This document shows, piece by piece, positions 23,727-57,436 of a DNA stretch of 64,000 bases. The position numbers and the translations under genes were made by a program. How positions within the stretch are numbered: the stretch's first letter is position 1; each line of letters begins with the position of its first letter. Below the pieces are notes generated by a model, which saw only the letters and a program-made list of their open reading frames with translations, was not told where the DNA came from and did no database searches. This stretch comes from Halolamina sp. CBA1230 (lineage in GTDB: Archaea; Halobacteriota; Halobacteria; Halobacteriales; Haloferacaceae). Location of the stretch: NCBI RefSeq assembly GCF_002025255.2, contig NZ_CP054587.1:2108001-2172000 (forward strand), read 5' to 3'.

Positions 23727-23895
23727 GTGAAAGCCCCTGCCCGCTCGGCTCGCGCGACTCGCTGCGCTCCTCGTCGGTCACTTCGTTCCCTCCTGCGGTG
23801 CTTGCGTCGTCACCAGAAATCGGAGATTTCTGGTTGGCAGACGAGAGCTTCGCTCTCGTCAACGTCGTGCTTCGCCGAGCGGGCAGCCCCTTTCA
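23727..23895 (-). repeat. Module C element, copy 1, with double-hairpin cassette
   Basis: A 169-bp element with 22-bp terminal inverted repeats. Read inwards both ends are TGAAAGnnnCTGCCCGCTCG plus GC, where nnn is CCC at one end and GGG at the other. On the minus strand it carries the D cassette (hairpins at 23812-23834 and 23840-23860) and then a core AAGCACCGCAGG...GAGCGCAGCGAGTCGC shared with copy 2 at 32479-32637. It adjoins a partial B element. It belongs to the 528-base gap between pdaD and the DUF2298 gene, which has no plausible coding sequence. Confidence 0.8.
23812..23860 (-). repeat. Double-hairpin cassette (module D) in C copy 1
   Basis: ACCAGAAATC / GGA / GATTTCTGGT (23812-23834), five bases, then GACGAGAGC / TTC / GCTCTCGTC (23840-23860). 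The first hairpin and its flanks are nearly identical to the cassette in truA; the second stem has a different sequence but pairs fully. Confidence 0.85.
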
Positions 23896-24034
23896 GCCCC
23901 ACCCAGACCGCACAGCCCACACGCCTCCCCAGCCGACTCGGTCGCTCACGTTCGTTCGCTCCCTCGTCCCTCGCGCTGAGACGCGGCATGAAGCCGCGCC
24001 CGCTTTCGCGCCACCGCACCGCCAGCGGTCAGAG
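23896..24034 (-). repeat. Partial module B element (right portion)
   Basis: On the minus strand it contains GTGGCGCGAAAGCG, a hairpin with arms CGCGGC and GCCGCG, the conserved GCGCGAGGGACGA, TCGGCTGGGGAGG (23924-23936) and GGGCTGTGCGGTC. These are in the order seen in the complete B elements at 35343 and 57190. The left half with its terminal repeat is missing. It joins C in the same order as at 32.4 kb, so B-right plus C may travel as a unit. Confidence 0.75.
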
Positions 24035-31998: not shown

Positions 31999-32109
31999 GG
32001 ATGGAGTGGTGTGTGGCGGGCGGAAGTAGCTTCTGAGAGCGTTCGTGATGATTCGGTTCTCGAGTGTTGGATAGATAGATCGCAGACGGCATCCGGTTTG
32101 TTGACTGTT

Positions 32110-32244
32110 GGGACGGCTACGGTGACAGCAACAGCATCTCGATCGTTGGCTACTGGGACAGCAACCGTGACGGCAACAGCATCTCTATCGTCGACTTCTG
32201 GGACGGCTACGGTGACAGCAACAGCAGCTCGATGCATGACCACT
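32110..32244 (+). repeat. Module A: three 45-bp tandem units
   Basis: Units start at 32110, 32155 and 32200. Each carries GGGAC, then GTGAC(A/G)GCAACAGC and (A)TCTCGATCGT-like sequence. In one frame each unit reads as 15 codons of the type WDGYGDSNSISIVGY, with several synonymous differences, but there is no start and the frame closes just after the third unit. The last unit runs into the left end of module B. Similar units flank the B copies at 35 and 57 kb. The gap from 31999 to 32786 has no credible gene. Confidence 0.8.
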
Positions 32245-32470
32245 TGTGACCGCAGGGTGTCGGGCACGAGGCCCGACACAGCTCGGAGTCCCCACTCCTC
32301 CCCCCGCGCTCGCCGACCGCTGGCGAGCGCGAGGCGTCCACCGCCACCGCACCGCGGCCGAGGTGGCGCGAAGCAGGAGCGCCCTTCGGGGCGCGATCAG
32401 CGCGAGGGACGACTGAGTGAACGGAGTGAACGAAGGAGTCGGCTGGGGAGGTCCGTGGGCTGTGCGGTCG
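32238..32470 (+). repeat. Module B element, copy 1 (right terminal repeat lost)
   Basis: The left end is GACCACTTGTGACCGCA. Hairpin I is GTGTCGGGC / ACGAG / GCCCGACAC (32257-32279). CCTCCCC is at 32297-32303. Hairpin II has arms CGCGCTCGCC and GGCGAGCGCG (32305-32331). Then come the invariant CGAGGCGTCCACCGCCAC, GCGCCC TTC GGGGCGC, and TCGGCTGGGGAGG (32439-32451). The right end stops matching after TGCGGTCG, where C begins nine bases later. Confidence 0.82.
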
Positions 32471-32478
32471 GGCGGGGC

Positions 32479-32637
32479 TGAAAGGGGCTGCCCGCTCGGC
32501 GAGCGAGACGACGTAAGCACCGCAGGGAGCGAAGCGACTGAGGAGCACAGCGAGTCGCAGCCCGGGCGATTCCGAAGGAATCGCCAGCAGCCGGGCGGCG
32601 TCGCCGCCCGGCAACGCCGAGCGGGCAGGGGCTTTCA
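32479..32637 (+). repeat. Module C element, copy 2
   Basis: A 159-bp element whose 22-bp ends match those of copy 1 (left 32479-32500, right 32616-32637, inverted, differing at three central positions). The core AAGCACCGCAGGGAGCGAAG continues to GAGCACAGCGAGTCGCAG. A double-hairpin cassette lies after the core here but before it in copy 1, so the cassette and the core are separable parts. Confidence 0.8.
32565..32612 (+). repeat. Double-hairpin cassette in C copy 2
   Basis: GGCGATTCC / GAA / GGAATCGCC (32565-32585), four bases AGCA, then GCCGGGCGGC / GTC / GCCGCCCGGC (32590-32612). Two 9-10 bp perfect stems with 3-base loops and a short spacer repeat the architecture of the truA and 23.8-kb cassettes, although both stems have different sequences. 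Confidence 0.8.
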
Positions 32638-35268: not shown

Positions 35269-35342
35269 CGACCGCTACGGCAACAGCATCTCGATCGTTG
35301 ACTTCTGAGACCGCAACTGCGACAGCAACAGCATCTCGTTCG
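35269..35342 (+). repeat. Module A units, left flank of B copy 2
   Basis: Two diverged A units, containing GGCAACAGCATCTCGATCGT and GACAGCAACAGCATCTCGTT, lead into B. They read towards B, as at 32.1 and 57.1 kb. Confidence 0.65.
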
Positions 35343-35596
35343 TAGACCACTTGCGACCGCAGTGCGCCGGACACGAGGTCCGGCGCTGGAAAGGAGTCCC
35401 CAACCCTCCCCCCGCGTCGGCGACAGGTCGCCGACGCGAGGCGTCCACCGCCACTGCGGTCGCTGTCGGCGCGTGACGTGAGTCCCTCCGTGGACGAACG
35501 AGCGCGCGAGGGACGACCGACTGAGCGAAGCGAAGGAGGGAGTCGGCTGGGGAGGTCCGAGGCCTGTGCGTCGCGGTTGCGGTCGCAAGTGGTCTA
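35343..35596 (+). repeat. Module B element, copy 2 (complete, 254 bp)
   Basis: Perfect 19-bp terminal inverted repeats: TAGACCACTTGCGACCGCA at 35343-35361 and its exact complement at 35578-35596. Hairpin I is GCGCCGGAC / ACGAG / GTCCGGCGC (35364-35386). CCTCCCC is at 35405-35411. Hairpin II has 12-bp arms CGCGTCGGCGAC and GTCGCCGACGCG (35413-35438). CGAGGCGTCCACCGCCAC and TCGGCTGGGGAGG (35543-35555) are as in the other copies. It occupies the 565-base gap between the convergent DHH and DUF5807-like genes, with no coding sequence. Confidence 0.88.
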
Positions 35597-57012: not shown

Positions 57013-57189
57013 GGGCGGGGTTCTCGGTGATTCGGGAAAACCGTGTCGGGTCCGTGGGAGTGAGTTGCGGGCGTGGTCGTCGACTGCTGGGGCGGTAATC
57101 GCGGCGAGTACGGTGTCCGGATCGTCGGCTACCGTGACAGCAACGGCATCTTGACTGACAGCGACAGCAACAGCATCTCGTTCGTAGCA

Positions 57190-57436
57190 CACTTGCGACC
57201 GCAGGCTGCCGGGCACGAGGCCCGGCAGGGCGCCGAGTCCCCACCCCTCCCCCCGCGGCCGGCGACGATTGCCGGCCGCGAGGCGTCCACCGCCACCGCA
57301 CCGCCGCCGCGGTGGCGCGCGACGTGAGCCCCTCCGTGGGCGAACGAGCGCGCGAGGGATGAGCGACTGAGCGTAGCGAAGGAGCGAATCGGCTGGGGAG
57401 GTTCGAGGGCTGTGCGGGGCGGTGCGGTCGCAAGTG
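57190..57436 (+). repeat. Module B element, copy 3 (complete, 247 bp)
   Basis: Perfect 14-bp terminal inverted repeats CACTTGCGACCGCA (57190-57203 and 57423-57436). Hairpin I is CTGCCGGGC / ACGAG / GCCCGGCAG (57206-57228). CCTCCCC is at 57246-57252. Hairpin II has arms CGCGGCCGGC and GCCGGCCGCG (57254-57280). CGAGGCGTCCACCGCCAC and TCGGCTGGGGAGG (57389-57401) are conserved. Diverged A-like sequence lies on both sides (57130-57189; inverted 57437-57470). It fills the 549-base gap between serS and the next lipoprotein gene; no coding sequence is credible there. Confidence 0.87.

Follow-up and report, generated by a model that had tools for sequence, protein, structure and literature searches.

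The bacterial ERIC and BOX repeats are intergenic elements of about 100-250 nt that covary and occupy sites conserved between related species, and the right-end region of IS605 serves, in other elements, as a single-stranded DNA (ssDNA) signal and as omega RNA. Among haloarchaea, the SMRs of Haloquadratum walsbyi end in inverted repeats that show no relation to known transposons, and they are frequently found together with other repeats; in the 'SwitchRepeats' of H. walsbyi, an identical position is occupied by two different repeats or by a single repeat in either orientation (PMC3119063). REP is described as a folded ssDNA hairpin that is recognised by an HUH protein (PMC8266576). The ssDNA of Streptomyces telomeres combines sheared purine pairing and GNA triloops with compensatory changes (PMC7205883).

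Module B, analysed here starting from a 64-kb stretch of a Halolamina chromosome (the window), is a non-coding, intergenic, dispersed haloarchaeal repeat that is uncatalogued. A search of Rfam at gathering and relaxed thresholds gave no gathering-level match and no meaningful weaker one, and no description of the repeat was found in the papers searched. Like SMR and PATE, module B is short, non-coding, multicopy and haloarchaeal, and, in a comparison by description, it shows terminal repeats and a high copy number, as expected of an SMR; typical SMRs are highly sequence-conserved, whereas module B is about 20% diverged, covaries and is present in many haloarchaeal families. As with the SwitchRepeats, a different or inverted repeat can stand at the same position, here between species. 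REP/REPIN and BIME are also dispersed palindromic intergenic DNA, but module B differs from REP/REPIN (TnpA-REP, RAYT) in its length of about 250 nt, its several hairpins and its terminal inverted repeats, and instead of a 20-40 nt palindrome with a GTAG/CGTC tag it shows GTAG only in the left-end variants of some copies. From ERIC and BOX it is distinguished by a different sequence, its archaeal host and an alternating G.A helix. Sheared purine pairs, GNA loops and compensatory changes are shared with the palindromes of Streptomyces telomeres, which are terminal, belong to linear replicons and are protein-capped, whereas module B is interspersed in the chromosome.

Architecture of module B

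The repeat ends in ACCACTTGYGACCGCAG and the reverse complement of ACCACTTGYGACCGCAG, and is composed of inverted terminal repeats, four hairpins (I-IV) and a long-range CCUCCCC/GGGGAGG clamp. A first-pass annotation of three copies had placed hairpin I at 32257, 35364 and 57206 around the loop ACGAG, and had described a hairpin II with partner arms in each; the arms of hairpin I lie exactly there in all three copies, and those of hairpin II were located at 32305, 35413 and 57254. The loops had also been taken as fixed, which holds insofar as ACGAG is common, but ACGGG, ACAGG, ATGAA, AGAGA and others occur across copies. That annotation lacked hairpins III and IV, and it had neither the long-range CCTCCCC/GGGGAGG pairing nor the short fourth copy. 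The features mapped in the window are the following:

32238-32470, plus strand: module B copy 1, from the left terminal repeat TGACCACTTGTGACCGCAG up to the junction with the TGAAAGGGGC element (CM R1 134 bits, 32289-32451)
32257-32279, plus strand: copy 1 hairpin I, GTGTCGGGC-ACGAG-GCCCGACAC, arms 32257-32265/32271-32279
32297-32451, plus strand: copy 1 clamp, CCTCCCC (32297-32303) with GGGGAGG (32445-32451)
32305-32331, plus strand: copy 1 hairpin II, CGCGCTCGCC/GGCGAGCGCG, arms 32305-32314/32322-32331, supported by covariation
32379-32394, plus strand: core of copy 1 hairpin III, GCGCCC-TTCG-GGGCGC; hairpin III covaries
32408-32440, plus strand: copy 1 hairpin IV, Watson-Crick dinucleotides separated by three tandem G.A steps, triloop GGA
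35343-35596, plus strand: module B copy 2, complete (CM R1 156 bits)
35364-35386, plus strand: copy 2 hairpin I, arms 35364-35372/35378-35386, loop ACGAG
35405-35555, plus strand: copy 2 clamp, CCTCCCC (35405-35411) with GGGGAGG (35549-35555)
35413-35438, plus strand: copy 2 hairpin II, arms 35413-35424/35427-35438, innermost pairs probably open
35469-35507, plus strand: copy 2 hairpin III, containing a tandem G.A step
35512-35544, plus strand: copy 2 hairpin IV, GAA triloop
57190-57436, plus strand: module B copy 3, complete, terminal repeats CACTTGCGACCGCA at 57190-57203/57423-57436 (CM R1 153 bits)
57206-57228, plus strand: copy 3 hairpin I, arms 57206-57214/57220-57228, loop ACGAG
57246-57401, plus strand: copy 3 clamp, CCTCCCC (57246-57252) with GGGGAGG (57395-57401)
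57254-57280, plus strand: copy 3 hairpin II, arms 57254-57263/57271-57280
57358-57390, plus strand: copy 3 hairpin IV, GTA triloop
23924-24051, minus strand: fourth, short copy, limited to hairpins III and IV and the GGGGAGG segment (CM R1 56.6 bits, E 2.8e-11)

The terminal inverted repeats of copy 2, TAGACCACTTGCGACCGCA, are 19 bp long and perfect (35343-35361/35578-35596). Copy 1 is without a right terminal repeat and joins the TGAAAGGGGC element instead; the fourth copy is also joined to this element, and is similar to the form found in other families.

The surroundings of module B are themselves repetitive. A second dispersed hairpin element, GACTGAAAGGGGC...GGGGCTTTCA, is present in the window at 32470-32637 and, on the minus strand, at 23800-23900; in several copies of module B (L050, L082, L090, L093 and L134) it adjoins the right end or takes its place, and it does so in other families too (L173, L179). 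Arrays of 45-nt (and 27-nt) repeats, GACAGCAACAGCATCTCGATCGTTGGCTACTGG, lie upstream (window 32086-32244, 35270-35347 and 57131-57178), and either the inverse of these arrays or a CACTCCGCGGTCGTGTTCGCGG array lies downstream. Six copies of this genome (L071, L073, L086, L056, L089 and L052) carry inserted two-hairpin modules (e.g., ATCAGAAATCGGAGATTTCTGATTGGCAGACGAGAATCGAAGATTCTCGTC) within the stems of hairpins I, II, III and IV; the triloops of these modules are of the GNA type or its complement TNC. A closing stem beyond the terminal repeats was considered and dropped, because left and right flank types are unassociated (the same type in 5 cases, 6.3 being expected).

Covariation and the strand that folds

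The first-pass annotation had read the paired substitutions as selection for a folded RNA or cruciform DNA and had proposed a covariation test over many copies. As three copies might mislead, such a test was carried out on 51 copies of the same genome, which holds about 53 full copies with strong covariation, using a G-test with APC correction against our own tree-aware, R-scape-like null (40 simulated alignments). Nine pairs reached E<0.05, seven of them helix pairs (one in hairpin I, column pair 44-52, and two in each of hairpins II, III and IV) and two of them neighbouring columns. The core alignment of 33 copies has both-side changes in 19 of 36 tested pairs, 98.2% paired cells (83.4% when shuffled) and a covariation score of 0.391, compared with 0.130 for shuffled pairs and 0.02-0.07 when partners were slid by 1-3 columns. 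At the loci common with the sister species, 142 of the 199 changed helix cells are pairing-preserving double changes. The clamp (helix 1) is paired in 99.6% of cells and is nearly invariant, so that covariation neither supports nor refutes it. A pattern search for hairpin I that allowed mismatches had too low a specificity for use.

Tandem sheared G.A pairs with a 5' pyrimidine and C(GNA)G loops both rank with the most stable features of DNA hairpins, and tandem sheared G.A pairs can also be formed by RNA. Hairpin IV has the consensus GAY-GA-NN-GA-NN-GA-NN-loop-NN-GA-NN-GA-NN-GA-RTC, in which the NN positions are paired, covarying Watson-Crick dinucleotides and the opposed GA steps make tandem G.A/A.G pairs, the outer steps being invariant in 49-51 of 51 copies. 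G or A occupies the G.A positions in 349 of 360 cells from two species, the cap is usually a GNA triloop, and length varies by 8 nt, which is one repeat unit. The same design is present in other haloarchaeal families, where 33 sequences follow the pairing string |||oo||oo||oo|| with few departures, with a paired fraction of 0.969 (0.678 when shuffled) and GNA in 24 of 28 loops. A genome pattern that fixed only the purines of hairpin IV, with no demand for pairing, gave 29 matches and none in the backwards control, and the free positions of these matches are 92.5% Watson-Crick, compared with 50% after shuffling.

An artefact of chance or low complexity in a GC-rich genome could draw on the four-base period of GANN and on the fact that both strands fold well as RNA and as DNA (z about -7); the zero matches in backwards controls, and the occurrence of the exact hairpin IV motif in the window at full copies 1-3 only, each time on the plus strand, make it a negligible prospect. 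Folding energy was also tried as a strand test and discarded, since both strands fold equally well and the free energy is therefore uninformative on this point. The G.A pairs are informative: the opposite strand gives C.T mismatches, and therefore the folded molecule is one particular strand, the purine-rich one. The cruciform half of the earlier proposal thus fails, because both strands of a symmetric cruciform cannot form the same helices when hairpin IV needs G.A pairs on a single strand; for the other half, that a folded nucleic acid is under selection, the covariation gives strong support.

Pure mutation bias would do without selection, with template switching in palindromes (quasi-palindrome correction) keeping hairpins perfect, and it could account for the paired changes seen in hairpins I and II, both of them perfect inverted repeats. 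It cannot preserve tandem G.A pairs while the intervening Watson-Crick pairs covary, since correction would convert G.A to G.C or T.A; hairpin IV contradicts it, and the one-strand G.A helix excludes palindrome correction as sole cause, leaving this explanation very improbable overall. Selection for a folded single strand, demonstrated here computationally, is a conclusion that we hold with high confidence.

Copy number and distribution

The genome has 3.47 Mb in four contigs, the main one, C1, being of 2.9 Mb. A core 14-mer has 52 sites (5 in the backwards control), all on C1, and a further 12 copies were found through hairpin IV, from which at least 60 copies are estimated on the chromosome. 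The terminal repeat pattern has 129 sites (21 in the control), all on C1 among the matches listed; the terminal repeats looked for in a MITE are present, and no transposon bearing them was found. Among named genomes, the strict core pattern matched only Halolamina (H. salifodinae, H. rubra and H. pelagica), and a covariance model of the core matched 74 of 195 genomes from the order, in 27 of 66 genera. In a sample of the phylum, each of the five genomes with a match came from this order.

An element that organises the chromosome, bound by nucleoid, replication or segregation proteins and needing extruded or unwound DNA, would agree with the confinement to the main chromosome in this genome (among the matches listed), with positions common between species and with the lack of an orientation rule. 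We consider it unlikely, given that plasmids of Halorussus, Halobaculum, Haladaptatus and Natrinema carry short homologous cores and that the distribution over genera is patchy.

The G.A helix pattern was also found in 24 contigs of IMG/VR, with the free positions paired in at least 16. In six AT-rich phage contigs (L211, L212, L213, L215, L217 and L231) the G.A hairpin directly follows a TTGACA-N17-TATACT-like promoter and is itself followed by a terminator-like hairpin; at L212:2391-2421(+), for instance, a 31-nt alternating G.A hairpin, ACGACCGAACGAGCGSAGCGAGTGAGGGAGT, precedes a terminator-like hairpin by about 40 nt. The promoter-linked hairpin is a candidate phage small RNA, judged from these sequence signals, and in the unrelated phage contigs the G.A helix is probably RNA. 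Its position behind phage promoters indicates that the helix design is usable in RNA too.

Shared loci and sequence turnover

Twenty of the 52 copies have both flanks syntenic with a copy in the sister species (genome G004), 16 in the same orientation and 4 inverted. Orthologous copies have an identity of 0.799 and shuffled pairs one of 0.793 (p=0.15), the DNA flanking shared loci is mostly 83-92% identical, and the extra two-hairpin modules differ between orthologues. The sites are conserved and the locus has no memory of its sequence; therefore, the site is inherited and its content, with occasional inversion, is either exchanged between sites or evolving very fast, two processes that are not fully separable at shared loci. 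Pairwise identity between copies never exceeds 91%, which gives no indication of recent bursts. Identities between blocks of the copies of this genome are uncorrelated except for the last two blocks (0.73), a correlation probably due to truncated copies. At the copy 2 locus, a divergent copy is present in G003 and none in G002, G005 and G006.

Clean empty sites with target duplications were sought, but intergenic DNA is too diverged between species for this, and the test of target duplications is affected by the flanks of module B, which are inverted 45-nt arrays with uncertain boundaries. Two copies of this genome (L063 and L064) together share both flanks of one sister-species copy (L155), as would be expected if recombination between dispersed copies had rearranged the region, to judge from the flanks.

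RNA or single-stranded DNA

Scored sites are convergent in 24 cases, tandem in 31 and divergent in 3, and module B sites thus avoid divergent promoters. The main rival to a DNA element is a structured non-coding RNA family, in which the plus strand of each or many copies would be transcribed and the folded RNA would be the product or a 3' UTR element. Covariation of this type, significant for a conserved fold, is what defines RNA families, hairpin III of copy 1 has one TTCG tetraloop, the helix follows promoters in the six phage contigs, and the phylum-level search depicts a lineage-restricted family. G.T pairs exceed A.C pairs weakly over all helices (59 vs. 38), mostly on account of hairpin IV (19 vs. 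5), an excess that favours RNA but fits ssDNA alike. Against RNA, none of 90 copies has a TATA-like box in the 100 nt that precede the left end, orientation is free with respect to genes and flips at shared loci, and 20 of the 31 tandem sites carry the element against the direction of both neighbouring genes (11 have the same orientation), so that read-through would copy the other strand. These features of orientation and promoter signal make a dedicated RNA less likely; terminal inverted repeats, the lack of locus memory, mosaic copies and the lack of an Rfam match also speak against it. A structured RNA family is thus a possible but rather doubtful reading.

Folded ssDNA is tentatively favoured over structured RNA, and a dispersed repeat of the REP/PATE/SMR kind, acting through folded ssDNA, has in our judgement an even chance of being the right description. 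According to this model, the purine-rich strand would fold alone, with the terminal inverted repeats closing the molecule, CCUCCCC/GGGGAGG clamping its core and hairpins I-IV projecting from it; the fold would act as ssDNA, exposed in replication or recombination, and would be recognised by a putative protein partner, and fixed intergenic sites may receive or exchange copies in this way, on the pattern of REP with TnpA-REP and of haloarchaeal PATE and SMR.

Neither a cognate transposase nor a cognate TnpA-REP was found for module B. Ten Y1 matches are present in this genome, of the IS605 type at the loci read, and tandem-G.A hairpins occur in the sense strand of the right ends of five IS605-type loci, three of this genome and two of others (L201-L203, L235 and L241), which belong to one group of haloarchaeal IS605-type elements. 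The resemblance of module B to IS605 ends is in helix design only: the motif is restricted to one IS605 group, and neither IS605 nor the IS605-related PATE, whose near-terminal palindromes resemble an IS605 end, has the terminal inverted repeats seen in module B. In addition, Y1 (IS200/IS605-type) transposase was undetected in four genomes (G027, G046, G053 and G056) that hold 6-14 copies of the family, and mobilisation by a Y1 transposase was therefore rejected as a firm claim.

Significance

Covariation is usually taken as proof of RNA; here the fold belongs to one strand, and its context argues no less for DNA than for RNA. More tentatively, and with a probability that we regard as rather low, module B could represent a new class of functional nucleic-acid element, haloarchaea-wide and seen independently in phages, with a recognition module made of an alternating Watson-Crick/tandem G.A helix and a GNA cap that would evolve by compensatory change as folded chromosomal ssDNA. 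The alternating G.A helix is a simple searchable signature (29 matches against 0 in the control, in one genome), making the protein partner, mobility and expression of the family testable in culturable haloarchaea. Module B would be a haloarchaeal counterpart of the bacterial REP/ERIC repeats.
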